A DNA stretch of 64,000 nucleotides from Verrucomicrobiales bacterium. Its GTDB lineage: Bacteria; Verrucomicrobiota; Verrucomicrobiia; Limisphaerales; CANJXF01. Location: assembly GCA_947478865.1 (NCBI GenBank), contig CANJXF010000016.1:1-64000 (forward strand). Direction: 5' to 3'. The notes beneath the pieces are model-generated. The model was given only the letters and a program-made list of their open reading frames with translations. It had not been told where the DNA came from and made no database searches. Within the stretch, counting starts at the first letter, position 1. The number at the start of each line of letters is the position of its first letter. Made by a program: the position numbers and the translations under genes. Shown here piece by piece: positions 57,934 through 63,825 of this stretch.

Positions 57934-57963
57934 GAGCGAGGCTTCGGCCTCGCTCTTTTTTTT
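57934..57963 (+). terminator. rho-independent terminator after rplS
   Basis: 9-bp perfect stem GAGCGAGGC / GCCTCGCTC with UUCG tetraloop, then eight T residues. It ends at the hisS stop on the opposite strand, so the two convergent transcripts end here. Confidence 0.95.
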
Positions 57964-59212
57964 AGCCCAAGTTTTCGTGGAGGTCGCCGGGAGCGAGAAT
58001 TTTTTCTTCTCGGGTGCGAAGATTTTTTAGTTTCACGGTCAGCTCTAAGTCAGCGGAGCGTTCCAGTTTGATCGTGTACGCGGAATTTAACTCCATCGCG
58101 CGTTTAAATTGCTTGTCGGATTTTGCGGGCGTAAACGAATATTCGATTGCATAACCTTCGTCGCGCAGATCGTGAATCAATTCCAACGAAGCCGGGCGCA
58201 GTTCTTCGTCTTCAATTAGGCAGAATGCGTGAATGTGCGAATCGAATTTCGGCATTAAACCGCGGGCTTTGAGGAGTTCCAGTAATACCACGTCGCCCAT
58301 GCCGAAGCCGAGCGCGGGCAGGTTCACCTTGCCGCCACTGATTAGTTTCACGAGATTGTCATAACGACCGCCGCCGGCAATCGCGCGAAATTCCCCTTTT
58401 TTGTCGAACGCTTCAAATACGACCCCGGTGTAATAGGCGAGTCCGCGAATCACGTGATAGTCCACTCGGACAAAATCGCTCAGGCCGCGCGCGGTTAAAT
58501 TTTTCAGAATCAGATCCAACTCTGCCGTCGGCGTGCCGCTTTTAATGAACGTGGTGACTTCGTCTGCAGATATTCCAAGTGCGTCCAATTTGATTTTGCT
58601 TTGCGCAGGATCTTCGCGCTCCATTTTATCAATGATCTGGTAAAACTGATAAGCCTTGGATTCATCCTGGCAACGTTGCTGGAAAAATTCCTGCCACGCA
58701 TTGCGACTGCTGAGGCGAATCACGAAATCGTCGCTCGTCAGACCAAAGCTGCGCAATGTATCGATCAGAAGGGCGATTAATTCAGCTTCAGCCGAGACGT
58801 CGGACTCACCGAAGATATCGCAGTTGAATTGAAAGTGTTCGCGCAATCGGCCTTTTTGCTGCCGTTCGTAGCGAAAGAGTTGCGGAACGGCAAACCACTT
58901 GATCGGCTTTTTATAATTTCGTTCGCTGCTGGAAATCATGCGGGCCAGAGTCGGCGTCATTTCCGGACGAAGCGCCACCGCCCGTTCTCCTTTGTCCACG
59001 AAATTGTAAAGTTGGCCCACGATTTCTTCGCCACTTTTCAGGGTGAATAACTCCAATGGTTCTAATGGCGGGCCATCGTATTCGCGGAATGCATAACGCC
59101 GGGCGACTTCGCGCCATTTGCCGAAAATGTATTGGCGCGCGTCCGCGCTCCACGCCTCGGAATTCGGGAGTGGTTCGGGATAAAAATCGCGGAAACCGGG
59201 TAAACGTTCCAT
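57962..59212 (-). CDS. hisS: histidyl-tRNA synthetase
   Basis: 416 residues. Class II core with RPEMTPTLARM (motif 2 region ...FRYERQQKGRLREHFQFNCDIFG), RGLAYYTGVVFEAFDK and GGGRYDNLV (histidine signature), then an anticodon-binding domain. The motif 1 region has LPGFRDFYPE. Stop overlaps the rplS terminator. Complete. Confidence 0.95.
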   Translation of the reverse strand: MERLPGFRDFYPEPLPNSEAWSADARQYIFGKWREVARRYAFREYDGPPLEPLELFTLKSGEEIVGQLYNFVDKGERAVALRPEMTPTLARMISSSERNYKKPIKWFAVPQLFRYERQQKGRLREHFQFNCDIFGESDVSAEAELIALLIDTLRSFGLTSDDFVIRLSSRNAWQEFFQQRCQDESKAYQFYQIIDKMEREDPAQSKIKLDALGISADEVTTFIKSGTPTAELDLILKNLTARGLSDFVRVDYHVIRGLAYYTGVVFEAFDKKGEFRAIAGGGRYDNLVKLISGGKVNLPALGFGMGDVVLLELLKARGLMPKFDSHIHAFCLIEDEELRPASLELIHDLRDEGYAIEYSFTPAKSDKQFKRAMELNSAYTIKLERSADLELTVKLKNLRTREEKILAPGDLHENLG

Positions 59213-59321
59213 AAATCAACGGCGAAAATGCACAATAGAGAGCGATTGAAAAAGCTATTTCTGGTTCCGCAGTCAATGTCCCGCCGGACCGAAATTTAAA
59301 ACTAAACTCAGTGCGGAGGTA

Positions 59322-59630
59322 TTATGAGGAGGTCGATGGACTGATCCCTGACAACTTGAGAACCGATTCGCGCATTTCTTTGCCTGGCTTGAATTTAACC
59401 ACACTGCGTTGCGGGATCGGAACGTCTTTCTCCGGCGCGTTGGGATTTCGGCCGATTCGAGCTTTACGTATCTTGACTTCGAACACGCCAAAGTTTCGCA
59501 ATTCGACGGTGTCGCCTTTGGCGACAGACTCAGCAATGTAATCGAGCGTCTTCTGAACGACATCGAGAATCTCCTGTTGTCCTAAGCCGGTTTCTTTGCT
59601 GATCCGAACTACCAAATCGCGCTTTGTCAT
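59322..59630 (-). CDS. HU/IHF-family DNA-binding protein
   Basis: 102 residues. Bacterial histone-like fold: VRISKETGLGQQEILDVVQKTLDYIAESVAKGDTVELRNFGVF and RIGRNPNAPEKDVPIPQRSVVKFKPGKEMR (DNA-binding arm with the intercalating Pro). The C-terminal tail (VLKLSGISPSTSS) is longer than in HU. Which subunit type (HU or IHF) cannot be assigned. Confidence 0.92.
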   Translation of the reverse strand: MTKRDLVVRISKETGLGQQEILDVVQKTLDYIAESVAKGDTVELRNFGVFEVKIRKARIGRNPNAPEKDVPIPQRSVVKFKPGKEMRESVLKLSGISPSTSS

Positions 59631-59704: not shown

Positions 59705-59992
59705 TTAGCTCTCGATCACATTGATCTCTACAGGCTCAACTTTGATGCCCATTTTCTCCAACCACTTGATCGACGCCTTGATGTCGGCCCGTTTCCCTTC
59801 GAGTTCAAGGGAGACGATTCCAATTTCATCCGTGACGCTTGCCTGACGAACATTTGTGATGACCGGAAATTTCTTGGCCAGCTGCCAGACCACCGGGGTG
59901 GTGATGAGTTTGGGCGGAAACATCAACCACAGGCGCGTTTGCTGCGATTGATTGCCGCTGGCCGGTTTGTCTTTGGTTTTCTTTTTTGCCAT
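59705..59992 (-). CDS. NIL-domain protein
   Basis: 95 residues from ATG 59992. NIL domain (ferredoxin-like, found at the C-terminus of MetN): RLWLMFPPKLITTPVVWQLAKKFPVITNVRQASVTDEIGIVSLELEG and LEKMGIKVEPVEI. It is the last gene of the thrC-moaD-moaD-NIL operon, separated from the MoaD gene by 10 bp. NIL domains near MoaD and ThrC are linked to sulfur/methionine metabolism in other bacteria (established as co-occurrence); probably a sensor or sulfur-transfer partner here (inference). Confidence 0.8.
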   Translation of the reverse strand: MAKKKTKDKPASGNQSQQTRLWLMFPPKLITTPVVWQLAKKFPVITNVRQASVTDEIGIVSLELEGKRADIKASIKWLEKMGIKVEPVEINVIES

Positions 59993-60002
59993 AACCAGTT
60001 TC

Positions 60003-60278
60003 CTATCCGCCTGCAATGGCTGGGATGATGCTGATTTCATCGCCATCCTTCAGAGCTGTTTCTTGATTTTGCAAAAAGCGGATGTCTTCTTCGTTCACGT
60101 AAACATTCACAAAACGGCGAACCGCGCCGCTTTCATCCACGAGGCGTTCTTGAATACCAGGAAAGCGACTTTGCAGTTGCGCGATTGCGTCGCTGATGGT
60201 TTTGGCATCGATCTGCACAAGTTCCTCTTCGTTGGTCAATTTGCGTAGCGGAGTTGGAATTCTGACGTTAATAGGCAT
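60003..60278 (-). CDS. MoaD/ThiS-like ubiquitin-fold sulfur carrier, copy 1
   Basis: 91 residues. MPINVRIPTPLRKLTNEEELVQI, TISDAIAQLQSRFPGIQERLVDE, VNVYVNEEDIRFLQNQETALKDGDEISIIPAIAGG. The free C-terminal Gly-Gly is the site of adenylation and thiocarboxylation. Tandem paralogue of the gene at 60307-60582, nearly identical over the last 45 residues. Part of the SAM-riboswitch operon. Confidence 0.86.
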   Translation of the reverse strand: MPINVRIPTPLRKLTNEEELVQIDAKTISDAIAQLQSRFPGIQERLVDESGAVRRFVNVYVNEEDIRFLQNQETALKDGDEISIIPAIAGG

Positions 60279-60306
60279 AAAGTTGATTCAGTGTTGGAGT
60301 TTGTTT

Positions 60307-60582
60307 TTAACCGCCGGCAATCGCCGAAATGATTCTTACTTCATCTCCATCGCGCAAGGCCGTTTGTTGATTCTGCAAGAAGCGAATGTCCTCTTCGTTC
60401 ACGTAAACATTGACGAAACGACGCACGGAACCGTCGCTTTCCAAAAGTCTTTCGACGAATCGCGGATAGCGCACCTGCAGCGTTTTGATGACTTCGAAAA
60501 CCGTCGTTCCAGAGACTTCAACAACTTGCTCGTTGTCCAAGAGTTTTCGCAACGGTTCCTGCGTTCGAACTTTGATTCGCAT
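60307..60582 (-). CDS. MoaD/ThiS-like ubiquitin-fold sulfur carrier, copy 2
   Basis: 91 residues. MRIKVRTQEPLRKLLDNEQVVEV, VFEVIKTLQVRYPRFVERLLESDGS, RRFVNVYVNEEDIRFLQNQQTALRDGDEVRIISAIAGG. C-terminal Gly-Gly conserved. Lies 1 bp after the thrC stop at 60584. No moaE, thiF or moeB homologue is next to it, so the adenylating enzyme must be elsewhere. Role: sulfur delivery, most likely to the neighbouring PLP enzyme (inference). Confidence 0.86.
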   Translation of the reverse strand: MRIKVRTQEPLRKLLDNEQVVEVSGTTVFEVIKTLQVRYPRFVERLLESDGSVRRFVNVYVNEEDIRFLQNQQTALRDGDEVRIISAIAGG

Positions 60583-60583
60583 A

Positions 60584-61846
60584 TTACGCCGTTACGGTGG
60601 ACTTGTTTTCTGCTTCAAGCAGCGATTCAAATTCGCGCAAGCTCGGGCGAATCTCGCGAGCCTGGCCGACGTGGCCGGCCACCGATTCCAGCGTCTTCAA
60701 TCCGTTGCCGGTGATGCAAAGAACGGCTGAATCCATGGCTGGGATTTTTCCAGTTGCGACCAGCTTCTTGGCGACCGCGACCGTGACTCCGCCTGCTGTT
60801 TCGGCAAAAATTCCTTCGCATTCGGCCAGCATTTTAATACCGTCGCGGATTTCATCATCGGTGACGTCGTCGGCTGCGCCGCCGGTTTCTTTCATCACTT
60901 TCAACGCATAAAATCCATCGGCTGGAGTGCCGATCGCCAACGATTTTGCAATCGTGTTTGGCTTAACTGGTTTGAAGAAATCGAGTCCCGCTTTTTGCGC
61001 CACGGAAATCGGAGAGCATCCGGTCGCCTGCGCACCGTGAACGGAATACCTGCTCTGTTGCACGAGCCCGAGCTTCACGAATTCCTGATAGCTTTTCTGA
61101 ATCTTCGTGAGTAACGAACCGGAAGCCATCGGGACAACCGTGTGTTGCGGAATTTTCCAGCCGAGTTGTTCGATGATTTCAAAGCCCATGCTCTTGGAAC
61201 CTTCGGCGTAATACGGCCTCATGTTCACGTTCACAAATGCCCAGCCGTATTTGCCCGCGATTTCCGCGCAGAGCCGATTTACTTCGTCGTAATGACCTTT
61301 GATTCCCACGACATTTGCGCCGTAAACGAGGGAATTTAAAATTTTGCCTTGTTCCAGATCCGAGGGGATAAACACATAGGCTTTTAATCCTGCCGCAGCC
61401 GCATTCGCAGCCACTGAATTGGCCAGGTTGCCCGTTGAGGCACAGGCAACTGTGGTGAAACCGAGTTCCTTGGCGCGGCTCAAAGCCACGCTGACCACGC
61501 GATCTTTGAACGAGAGCGTCGGATAATTAACCGTGTCGTTCTTGATCCAGAGTTCGCGGATGCCTAGCCGTTTGGCCAATCGATCTGCCTTGATCAATGG
61601 AGTGAAGCCGACTTCGCATCCGACCGTCGGTTCGCCAGCGATTGGCAGCAGCTCGCGGTAACGCCACATGTTTTTGCCGCGCGATTCAATCGCTTTCTTA
61701 GTTAATGATTGCTTGATGCGATCATAGTCGTAAGCGACTTCCAGCGGACCGAAGTCGAATTCGCAAACATGCGTTGCGGCGAGGGGATATTCGCGTCCGC
61801 ACTCGCGGCACTTCAACGCCTTCATGAATCCAGTTTGTTTATCCAT
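60584..61846 (-). CDS. thrC: threonine synthase-type PLP enzyme under SAM-I riboswitch control
   Basis: 420 residues. Zinc-ribbon-like start LKCRECGREYPLAATHVCEFDFGPLEVAYD, then PLP fold: TLSFKDRVVSVALSRAKELG (Schiff-base Lys near 114), VACASTGNLANSVAANAAAAG, GANVVGIKGHYDEVNRLC and ITGNGLKTLESV. It catalyses replacement at C4 of O-phosphohomoserine; threonine synthase is the family name. A SAM-I riboswitch lies in its leader, which is unusual for threonine synthesis, and two sulfur carriers follow. So it may instead form homocysteine from O-phosphohomoserine and a protein thiocarboxylate (inference). Start ATG 61846; ATG 61825 is possible. Confidence 0.85.
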   Translation of the reverse strand: MDKQTGFMKALKCRECGREYPLAATHVCEFDFGPLEVAYDYDRIKQSLTKKAIESRGKNMWRYRELLPIAGEPTVGCEVGFTPLIKADRLAKRLGIRELWIKNDTVNYPTLSFKDRVVSVALSRAKELGFTTVACASTGNLANSVAANAAAAGLKAYVFIPSDLEQGKILNSLVYGANVVGIKGHYDEVNRLCAEIAGKYGWAFVNVNMRPYYAEGSKSMGFEIIEQLGWKIPQHTVVPMASGSLLTKIQKSYQEFVKLGLVQQSRYSVHGAQATGCSPISVAQKAGLDFFKPVKPNTIAKSLAIGTPADGFYALKVMKETGGAADDVTDDEIRDGIKMLAECEGIFAETAGGVTVAVAKKLVATGKIPAMDSAVLCITGNGLKTLESVAGHVGQAREIRPSLREFESLLEAENKSTVTA

Positions 61847-61866
61847 AAATTTATTTTTGTTTTAGC

Positions 61867-61932
61867 GGAGCGACGGTTTCCAACCGGCTTGGTGCTTTCT
61901 CTTGCCAAAAGCCGGTTGCATACCGGCGCTCC
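61867..61932. repeat. REP-like 24-bp inverted repeat in the thrC leader
   Basis: Arms 61867-61890 and 61909-61932 match at 21 of 24 positions with an 18-base loop. Outer ends read GGAGCG/CGCTCC as in the repeat at 37443. It lies between the riboswitch terminator and the thrC start, so it would form a large hairpin in the leader RNA. Confidence 0.75.
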
Positions 61933-61940
61933 AATCGTGG

Positions 61941-61975
61941 AAATAAAAAACCTCTTCCCAGTGAAGAGAAGAGGT
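61941..61975 (-). terminator. attenuator terminator of the SAM-I riboswitch
   Basis: On the minus strand: an 8-bp stem ACCTCTTC / GAAGAGGT (10-base loop), followed by TTTTTTATTT. The 5' arm can pair alternatively with GAGAAGAG in the P1 3' strand of the aptamer just upstream, giving an antiterminator; this is the usual OFF-switch architecture of SAM-I riboswitches. Confidence 0.9.
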
Positions 61976-61996
61976 CGGAAAAATTTCGTGCGCTCT

Positions 61997-62116
61997 TCTC
62001 ATCTTTTCCCAAACCTGCCGCGGTCTGAGCTGGAATTGGCACCTGGACATCGGAGACACGCTCCAACCGGTTGCCGTGGTTTCATCGGGCCAGTCCCTCA
62101 ACCACTCTGAATGAGA
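61997..62116 (-). promoter_or_regulatory. SAM-I (S-box) riboswitch aptamer
   Basis: The minus strand has the S-box core: GAGGGACTGGCCCGATGAAA with the following C-GGCAACC, a later GGTGCCAATTCC-GC and terminal GATGAGA. P1 is TCTCAT (62111-62116) paired with ATGAGA (61997-62002). It ends about 20 bases before the terminator. SAM binding would turn transcription of thrC-moaD-moaD-NIL off. Strong match to the family consensus as I know it; not a covariance-model result. Confidence 0.93.
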
Positions 62117-62175
62117 TTCGTTATATCAACGAATGCGGATACATTGATTGATTGAAAATCCGCTGTCAACGGTTT

Positions 62176-62559
62176 TTATCCCTGAATCTGTTTTGTGTAA
62201 TCCGCTGAAGACAGCAGTGAATTGATTTCATCCGGTTGCGTGAGTTTGATTTTGTAAAACCAGCCGTTGCCGTGCGGGTCGGTGTTGACTAATTCCGGTT
62301 TATCCACGACAGCCTGGTTCACTTCCGAAATTTCTCCGCTGACGGGGGAATAAATGTCGCTGGCCGTTTTAACGGACTCTACGACCGCACACGCTTCGCC
62401 TGCCTTCACGGTGCGCCCAATGGCGGGCAATTCCACAAACACGATGTCGGTCAATTCGTGCTGCGCGTGATCGGTGATGCCGACGGTCGCGGTGTCGCCA
62501 GAGAGGCGAACCCATTCGTGAGATTTGGCGTATTTTAATTCGTTTGGAACGTTGCTCAT
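62176..62559 (-). CDS. gcvH: glycine cleavage system H protein
   Basis: 127 residues. Lipoyl domain with [17 protein letters not shown], the lysine of VKTAS being lipoylated; starts [17 protein letters not shown]. Carries aminomethyl groups between P, T and L proteins. 138 bp downstream of gcvT on the same strand; gcvP is not nearby. Confidence 0.95.
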
Positions 62560-62697
62560 AAAATTTCTAAGTGCTTCAGCAGGTTACGCGGATGTTCATT
62601 TCACTCAAGCCCGCAAACCGATGTCCCGCGAAGAAAGCGAAGATGATAAAGTTTAAAAGTTTTTCCTTCGCTGCCGTCGCCTCTTCGCGAAATAATC

Positions 62698-63825
62698 TCA
62701 ACCTTTTCGGTAAATCGGCTTCTTCACGATCACAGCCGGGGCGCGTTTGCCGCGAATTTCGATTTCAATCTTCGTGTCAGCTTTTGAGAACTCTGTGGGC
62801 ACGTAGCCCATTCCGATGCCGATGCCCAGCGACGGACTTTGCGTTCCGCTGACCGCTTCGCCGATCTTTGCGCCATCGATCCAAATTGGATAATGCGGGC
62901 GGGGCGGGGCGGATTTGTCGGTCATCTTGAACGCTATACACTTTTTGGACACTCCGTTCGCCTTCTGCGCAGCCAAAATTTCGCGGCCAACGAAATTGCC
63001 TTTGTCTAGCGCGACGAAAAACCCGACACCTGCTTCGACGGGGGTGGTGTTCTCGTCGAGTTCGTGTCCGTAGAGTGGATAGCAAACTTCCGTGCGCAGC
63101 GTATCGCGCGCACCGAGTCCCGCCGGGACGCATCCGAACGGTTTCCCCGCTTCCAAAAGCTTGTCCCAGATTTTCTGAATGGCGGCGTTCAATCCGATGA
63201 TTTCAAAACCATCTTCGCCGGTGTAGCCAGTTCGCGCGGCGAACACGTTCTCGTTTTCAAAGCGGAAAATACCGATCTCGTTTTTGTTCAGCTCCGTGAC
63301 AGAGTTGACCGTCGTTCCTCCAACCGATTTGCCGGAAATCACTTGGGTGATAAACTCCTTCACCTTCGGTCCTTGGACTGCGACCGCCGCATAGTTGTCG
63401 GAACCGTCCGCGAATTGGATCTCGTTCCGGTGAGGAAATTTTTCCAATTCCTTGGAGATCCACGCCGCATCGACGTCCACGCCGGACGCATTGACGATGA
63501 GTAGGAAAAATTCTTTCGCAATCCGATAGACGTAAAGGTCGTCGACCACTCCGCCGTTTTCGTTGCACATCAGCGTGTATTGACCTTGGCCGATGGCGAG
63601 TTTGCTCGCGTCGTTCGTGAACAGGTGATTCAGAAAACTGACGGCTGCCGGGCCGCTGACGGTAAGTTCGCCCATGTGTGAGATGTCGAAAACTCCGGCG
63701 GCTTTGCGAACGGCGAGATGTTCGTCAACAATGCTGGTGTATTGAACCGGCATTTCCCATCCGCCGAAATCGATGAGACGAGCGCCCAGTTTTTGATGTG
63801 CGGAAAAAAGCGGTGTGCGTTTCAT
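62698..63825 (-). CDS. gcvT: aminomethyltransferase (glycine cleavage T protein)
   Basis: 375 residues. MKRTPLFSAHQKLGARLIDFGGWEMPVQY, GVFDISHMGELTVSGPAAVSFLNHLFTND, and GYTGEDGFEI, LGARDTLRTEVCYPLYGHEL plus the C-terminal domain. Transfers the methylene group to tetrahydrofolate. Complete; ATG 63825 lies 6 bp after the oxidoreductase stop, so a shared transcript is likely. No glycine riboswitch seen between them. Confidence 0.95.
   Translation of the reverse strand: MKRTPLFSAHQKLGARLIDFGGWEMPVQYTSIVDEHLAVRKAAGVFDISHMGELTVSGPAAVSFLNHLFTNDASKLAIGQGQYTLMCNENGGVVDDLYVYRIAKEFFLLIVNASGVDVDAAWISKELEKFPHRNEIQFADGSDNYAAVAVQGPKVKEFITQVISGKSVGGTTVNSVTELNKNEIGIFRFENENVFAARTGYTGEDGFEIIGLNAAIQKIWDKLLEAGKPFGCVPAGLGARDTLRTEVCYPLYGHELDENTTPVEAGVGFFVALDKGNFVGREILAAQKANGVSKKCIAFKMTDKSAPPRPHYPIWIDGAKIGEAVSGTQSPSLGIGIGMGYVPTEFSKADTKIEIEIRGKRAPAVIVKKPIYRKG

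Follow-up and report, generated by a model that had tools for sequence, protein, structure and literature searches.

Using a combination of riboswitch and protein family searches, a gene tree and a survey of the class, our work here examines a short operon in the window, the 64,000-nucleotide stretch of contig CANJXF010000016.1 analysed here, whose nearest named relatives are Limisphaerales/Pedosphaera metagenome-assembled genomes (MAGs) of Verrucomicrobiota. With a probability that we put at roughly 0.88, this is an S-adenosylmethionine (SAM)-repressed homocysteine-synthesis operon of a Limisphaerales bacterium, in which the threonine-synthase-like enzyme MetM would draw sulfur from the small carrier protein MetO. 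An earlier note, made from the sequence alone, had suggested that this pyridoxal phosphate (PLP) enzyme joins O-phosphohomoserine with a MoaD thiocarboxylate to give homocysteine, so that the operon would serve methionine synthesis, and the lack of alternatives in the genome, a separate hom–thrC pair, MetH and a MoeZ-like E1 all point the same way. The proposed chemistry is not new: it is already published for MetM/MetO of Streptomyces, as described in PMC12172450, and the earlier hypothesis amounts to essentially that mechanism, reached independently. What may be new here is the NIL-domain protein, conserved as the third gene of the cassette across the class.

The gene order that had been read from the letters, a thrC-like gene, two GG-ending ThiS/MoaD genes and a NIL gene with spacings of 1, 28 and 10 nt, all on the minus strand, proved accurate, and the operon comprises the following features:

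61996–62117, minus strand: SAM-I (S-box) aptamer, full-model RF00162 match, 76.3 bits.
61949–61976, minus strand: intrinsic terminator of the expression platform, its 5′ arm complementary to the P1 3′ strand (antiterminator), from a terminator scan and folds.
60584–61846, minus strand: metM, ThrC-like fold-type II PLP enzyme of 420 aa, a proposed O-phosphohomoserine-dependent homocysteine synthase (PF00291, E 1.8e-66).
60307–60582, minus strand: metO copy 1, MoaD/ThiS-type carrier of 91 aa, tail AIAGG (PF02597, 58.8 bits).
60003–60278, minus strand: metO copy 2, MoaD/ThiS-type carrier of 91 aa, tail AIAGG (PF02597, 71.3 bits).
59705–59992, minus strand: NIL-domain protein of 95 aa (PF09383, 42.3 bits); the longest frame begins at 60046, within the second carrier gene, and the ATG at 59992 is the likely start.

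The leader confirms the SAM-I aptamer that the earlier note had placed ahead of the thrC-like gene and had proposed to check against RF00162. An Rfam search of the window matched that family at 62117–61996 on the minus strand (E 3.8e-16), over model positions 1–108 in full and above the gathering score of 44.4. The terminator is likewise present, as an 11-pair stem followed by TTTTTT, and in the folds its 5′ strand, CTCTTCTC, is complementary to GAGAAGAG, which forms the 3′ side of the P1 helix in the aptamer, a predicted pairing that matches the usual SAM-OFF attenuator layout. The leader thus joins both features of SAM-I membership, a complete aptamer over the gathering score and an expression platform, and no other SAM riboswitch occurs in the genome, which is 4.4 Mb in size and 97% complete. 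An imperfect palindrome (GGAGCGCCGGTATGCAACCGGC ... GCCGGTTGGAAACCGTCGCTCC; 61866–61932) lies after the terminator and ahead of the metM start, and was not found repeated in the other fetched loci.

Elsewhere in the genome, family searches returned no PF01053 member (MetB/MetC/MetY/MetZ), with none at E 1e-40 and a best match of 30.2 bits over ~110 residues, as expected for unrelated fold-I aminotransferases, and no DUF39 (HcyBio) protein. Because methionine synthase MetH is present (a 1276-aa frame) while PF01053 and DUF39 are absent, the genome could use homocysteine and yet has no known maker of it except this operon. A cysteine synthase is also encoded, and just one E1 of the ThiF family passes the cut-off; it belongs to the MoeB/MoeZ type and carries a rhodanese domain. 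A canonical ThrC of the Thr_synth_N type lies in an overlapping hom–thrC pair, with aspartate kinase ~4 kb away, so metM need not make threonine; the same pair would imply a supply of O-phosphohomoserine. A third ThrC-like gene (PRK08197) is 31% identical to MetM. The genome therefore holds no complete conventional met pathway, and metM is not its only thrC, two points on which the earlier note had made its proposal depend.

The wider pattern is seen in 237 genomes of the class, each at least 90% complete, for which the presence and absence counts depend on MAG completeness and on a capped first look per genome, and in which related genomes are not independent. MetM occurs in 96 of them at 62–100% identity, separated by a clean gap from other threonine synthases at no more than 42%, and PF01053 occurs in 154. 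Both are found in 25 genomes, MetM only in 71, PF01053 only in 129 and neither in 12, an exclusion with a Fisher p of 2.5e-26 by genome; the genus-level table (21/36/61/5) gives p 3e-11, counting by genus lessening relatedness without removing it. MetM and PF01053 alternate inside several families, DUF39 is absent from all 237 genomes, and MetM appears to be the only known methionine route in ~30% of those sampled. Furthermore, 90 of 93 SAM-I sites lie 59–166 nt upstream of metM, and one of the remaining three belongs to a genome whose metM starts at a contig end; the SAM-I riboswitch of this class is in effect the metM switch. A few MetM genomes (G007, G100 and G126) carry no detectable SAM-I site, and the 12 genomes with neither MetM nor PF01053 (e.g. 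G034, G097, G141 and G212) are candidates for auxotrophy or another route.

The identity of MetM itself rests on its tree placement and its residues. With its PLP lysine at K114, within SFKDR, MetM falls in a 32-row clade that includes MetM of the actinomycete Nonomuraea gerenzanensis (Actinomycetota; support 100/100, stem 1.73), far from every sampled threonine synthase. The tree tool flags long branches, that of Nonomuraea among them, and we judge its placement safe because of 52% identity and a common operon. In the alignment 28 positions are invariant in the clade (31/31 rows) and rare outside it, including A241 and S244 of ASGS and V117–V118 after SFKDR. The classical threonine synthase motifs are not found in MetM, which has PTLSFKDRV for PTGSFKDRG and ASGSL for GNAGN, with ASGS standing in place of the GNAGN PLP-phosphate loop in every MetM row. 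The “threonine synthase” label of this gene, a widespread one, is almost certainly a misannotation of a MetM/MetO-type homocysteine synthase. MetM could conversely be what that label says, a SAM-regulated threonine synthase, with the carriers and the NIL protein serving other sulfur pathways: it passes the cut-off of the NCBIfam threonine synthase model TIGR00260 (273.7 bits) and scores 294 bits with PRK08197, and a Microcystis homologue is described in PMC12172450 as having threonine synthase activity. We consider this extremely unlikely, given a genome that already holds the canonical hom–thrC operon and another ThrC-like gene and in which the PF01053 and DUF39 searches found no other homocysteine route, as well as the SAM-I control, the class-wide exclusion with PF01053 and the loop replacement.

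Several points nonetheless weigh against assigning homocysteine synthesis to this operon. The 25 genomes with both MetM and PF01053 depart from the exclusion, the orthology of MetM is anchored on the Nonomuraea operon and not on the Streptomyces MetM sequence, and the Microcystis homologue, as presented in PMC12172450, combines its threonine synthase activity with threonine deaminase activity and has no clear methionine function. MetM homologues may therefore differ in function.

MetO supplies the second half of the argument. All 123 collected MetO open reading frames end in GG, so that C-terminal trimming would be unneeded, and the best solved-structure match is mycobacterial CysO (3dwg, E 3.2e-20). 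Sulfide is a common in vitro donor for related PLP enzymes, and MetM might accordingly act in vivo as an O-phosphohomoserine sulfhydrylase on free sulfide, with MetO not its physiological donor. Set against this, nearly every locus with sufficient downstream sequence has metO after metM, the carrier is always GG-ended and is kept even in symbiont genomes of 0.92 Mb, and a MoeZ-like E1 is present; in Streptomyces, MetO is reportedly thiocarboxylated and donates its sulfur to homocysteine. We regard the free-sulfide route as very unlikely and favor MetO as the donor. Release by a hidden JAMM protein of the Mec+/HcyD kind was considered and rejected for this genome, where none passes the cut-off and the sole Prok-JAB match scores 22.8 bits, below it; the pmoA-bearing family discussed below (f30) yielded none either. 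As MetO ends in GG and no JAMM protein exceeds the cut-off, the simplest view is that homocysteine would be released directly by MetM.

The two carriers of the window share 60% identity. Copy 2, 51.6% identical to Nonomuraea MetO, is the MetO conserved across the class and copy 1, with the tail IISAIAGG, a derived paralogue. The copy 1 type is common only to the nearest relatives (L024, and cut off in L023), family f10 and L025 have another divergent first copy, whose tail is IIPAFAGG, and most relatives carry a single intact carrier. The metO duplication would thus have arisen more than once, sporadically, and be inessential to the system; the specialised tandem carriers that had been suspected were not borne out, and we reject such specialisation as a general feature. 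The metM–metO junction is also an insertion hot spot in some Limisphaerales relatives (L026:5200-9242, L052:5200-9251, L088:5200-9242, L044 and L091), where toxin–antitoxin or immunity-like genes (MNT/HEPN, HepT, WapI immunity, ParE, pentapeptide) stand between the two genes. The inserts in L026, L052 and L088 are separated by 4, 3 and 2 copies, respectively, of a repeat of the first ~100 nt of metO at a spacing of ~800 nt, and L026 and L088 also have a second metM 3′ end, an arrangement like stacked cassettes.

Building on the observed gene content, regulatory element, orthology, co-conservation and absence of known alternatives, we propose a four-step cycle, the first two steps of which are known for the Streptomyces homologues and are carried over here by analogy. 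The MoeZ-like E1 (ThiF plus rhodanese) would activate the C-terminal GG of MetO to a thiocarboxylate. MetM would then take O-phosphohomoserine from the threonine branch and eliminate phosphate on PLP, after which the carrier sulfur would add at C-gamma (gamma-replacement), not water at C-beta as in threonine synthase, freeing homocysteine and regenerating MetO without a JAMM protease. MetH would methylate homocysteine to methionine, and SAM, acting on the SAM-I leader, would complete the cycle by ending transcription; the NIL protein is probably a modulator of MetM/MetO that binds methionine or homocysteine.

Of 67 Limisphaerales loci with >1.5 kb of downstream sequence, 64 have the NIL gene after metO, and so do 15 of 20 loci of the wider class, Methylacidiphilaceae included. 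The NIL protein conserves R20, W22, P33, R49, G58, W77 and a VEPVE motif, and the window’s copy has no cysteine and no ferredoxin domain. Among solved structures its nearest relatives are MetN C-terminal domains (E 7.6e-4), which bind methionine and have a regulatory role. This likeness, together with the missing cysteines, speaks more for a sensor of methionine or homocysteine than for a sulfur relay, and by that analogy we give the sensor roughly even odds overall. A role in sulfur relay or as a redox partner, on the model of the DUF39/NIL–ferredoxin route, would have a precedent in Desulfovibrio, where homocysteine synthesis requires NIL/ferredoxin proteins (PMC5764234); we hold it to be unlikely, since zero cysteines in the window’s copy exclude a conserved persulfide site and disfavor persulfide relay, the ferredoxin domain and DUF39 partner are missing here and in the 237 genomes, respectively, and the solved relatives are those of MetN. 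We hypothesize, with the chances evenly balanced, that the sensor-type NIL protein acts as a third component, not recognised before, of thiocarboxylate-dependent homocysteine synthesis, a methionine/homocysteine-sensing feedback subunit on MetM/MetO, and that much of Verrucomicrobiota, Methylacidiphilum and Xiphinematobacter among them, has no homocysteine route other than the SAM-I–metM–metO–NIL cassette (Xiphinematobacter with metM–metO and without SAM-I and NIL).

These two lineages show what the cassette may mean for the organisms that carry it. Homologues of pmoA occur in the 12 genomes of family f30, which on this ground would be the verrucomicrobial methanotroph family Methylacidiphilaceae, and in all 12 MetM is present and PF01053 and DUF39 are absent. 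A defined mineral medium without amino acids supports growth of Methylacidiphilum fumariolicum (PMC5364354), so a homocysteine route must be present in that organism; MetM, by its predicted function, is the only known one found in the pmoA-bearing genomes and would account for the life of mineral-medium methanotrophs without a recognised homocysteine synthase. Genome G017 (915,884 bp) matches Ca. Xiphinematobacter CP012665 in length, and its locus (L147), like that of G026 (L148), has metM then metO, without a SAM-I leader and with no NIL gene adjoining metO. Both are, as judged from sequence, reduced symbiont genomes, and the pair is retained even at 0.92 Mb. Published accounts credit Xiphinematobacter with most steps towards the essential amino acids, methionine excepted (PMC4607532; also PMC7857533), and the metM and metO in its genome offer an answer that may explain this published gap of the nematode symbiont. 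More broadly, in a large share of a phylum that abounds in soil, freshwater and hot acidic vents, a misannotated “threonine synthase” would turn out to serve methionine synthesis. This bears on the general argument of Price et al. (PMC5764234) that annotation still misses routes to homocysteine, and the conserved NIL partner adds a new element that is concrete and can be tested.

The operon is flanked on its own strand by gcvT–gcvH, close upstream (62176–63825), and, close downstream (57962–59630), by an HU-family gene and hisS, a neighbourhood partly retained in several relatives (L024, L070, L072 and L073); the SAM-I leader may separate the glycine-cleavage unit from the methionine unit. Several public MAG entries that bear the title “Akkermansia muciniphila” or “Proteobacteria bacterium” (L029, L034, L036, L037, L040, L043, L045, L063, L073, L076, L079 and L093) have Limisphaerales-like metM loci at 84–87% identity to the window, and their titles look wrong.

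Set beside known systems, the operon resembles the HcyS/HcyF/HcyD route of Wolinella (Krishnamoorthy and Begley 2011) in that the sulfur of homocysteine would come from a protein thiocarboxylate. The Wolinella route is said to rely on a JAMM protease and on a MetY of the PF01053 type that acts on O-acetylhomoserine; in contrast, PF01053 is absent here, no JAMM protein exceeds the cut-off and MetO is already GG-ended. With CysM/CysO/Mec+ of Mycobacterium it shares a fold-type II PLP enzyme, an O-phospho amino acid and a MoaD-like carrier, while differing in a substrate that would be phosphohomoserine, a product that would be homocysteine, an enzyme that is ThrC-like and not CysM-like, and a genome with no Mec+-like protease over the cut-off. 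The DUF39 plus NIL/ferredoxin (plus COG2122) route of Desulfovibrio and methanogens (PMC5764234) similarly involves a NIL-domain protein, whereas here DUF39 is lacking throughout the sampled class and NIL stands without a ferredoxin domain. Closer is Nonomuraea gerenzanensis, which has the same order (SAM-I 68.7 bits, MetM 51.8%, MetO 51.6% with 91 aa ending in VAGG) and no NIL gene directly after metO at that locus. Its record (NZ_LT559118.1, L103; 11.85 Mb) is filed as a plasmid in PLSDB and must be a chromosome, with groEL and other housekeeping genes near metM; the other plasmid matches to MetM were set aside as ordinary threonine synthases at 30–37% identity. The nearest characterised counterpart is metM–metO of Streptomyces albulus (Hasebe et al. 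2024, AEM 90:e01247-24), which according to PMC12172450 lies behind a SAM riboswitch and provides a homocysteine synthase that uses O-phosphohomoserine. The operon shares with it a ThrC-like PLP enzyme, a GG-ending carrier directly downstream and a SAM riboswitch upstream, and departs from it in its extra class-wide NIL gene, in the tandem metO of this lineage and in belonging to another phylum.

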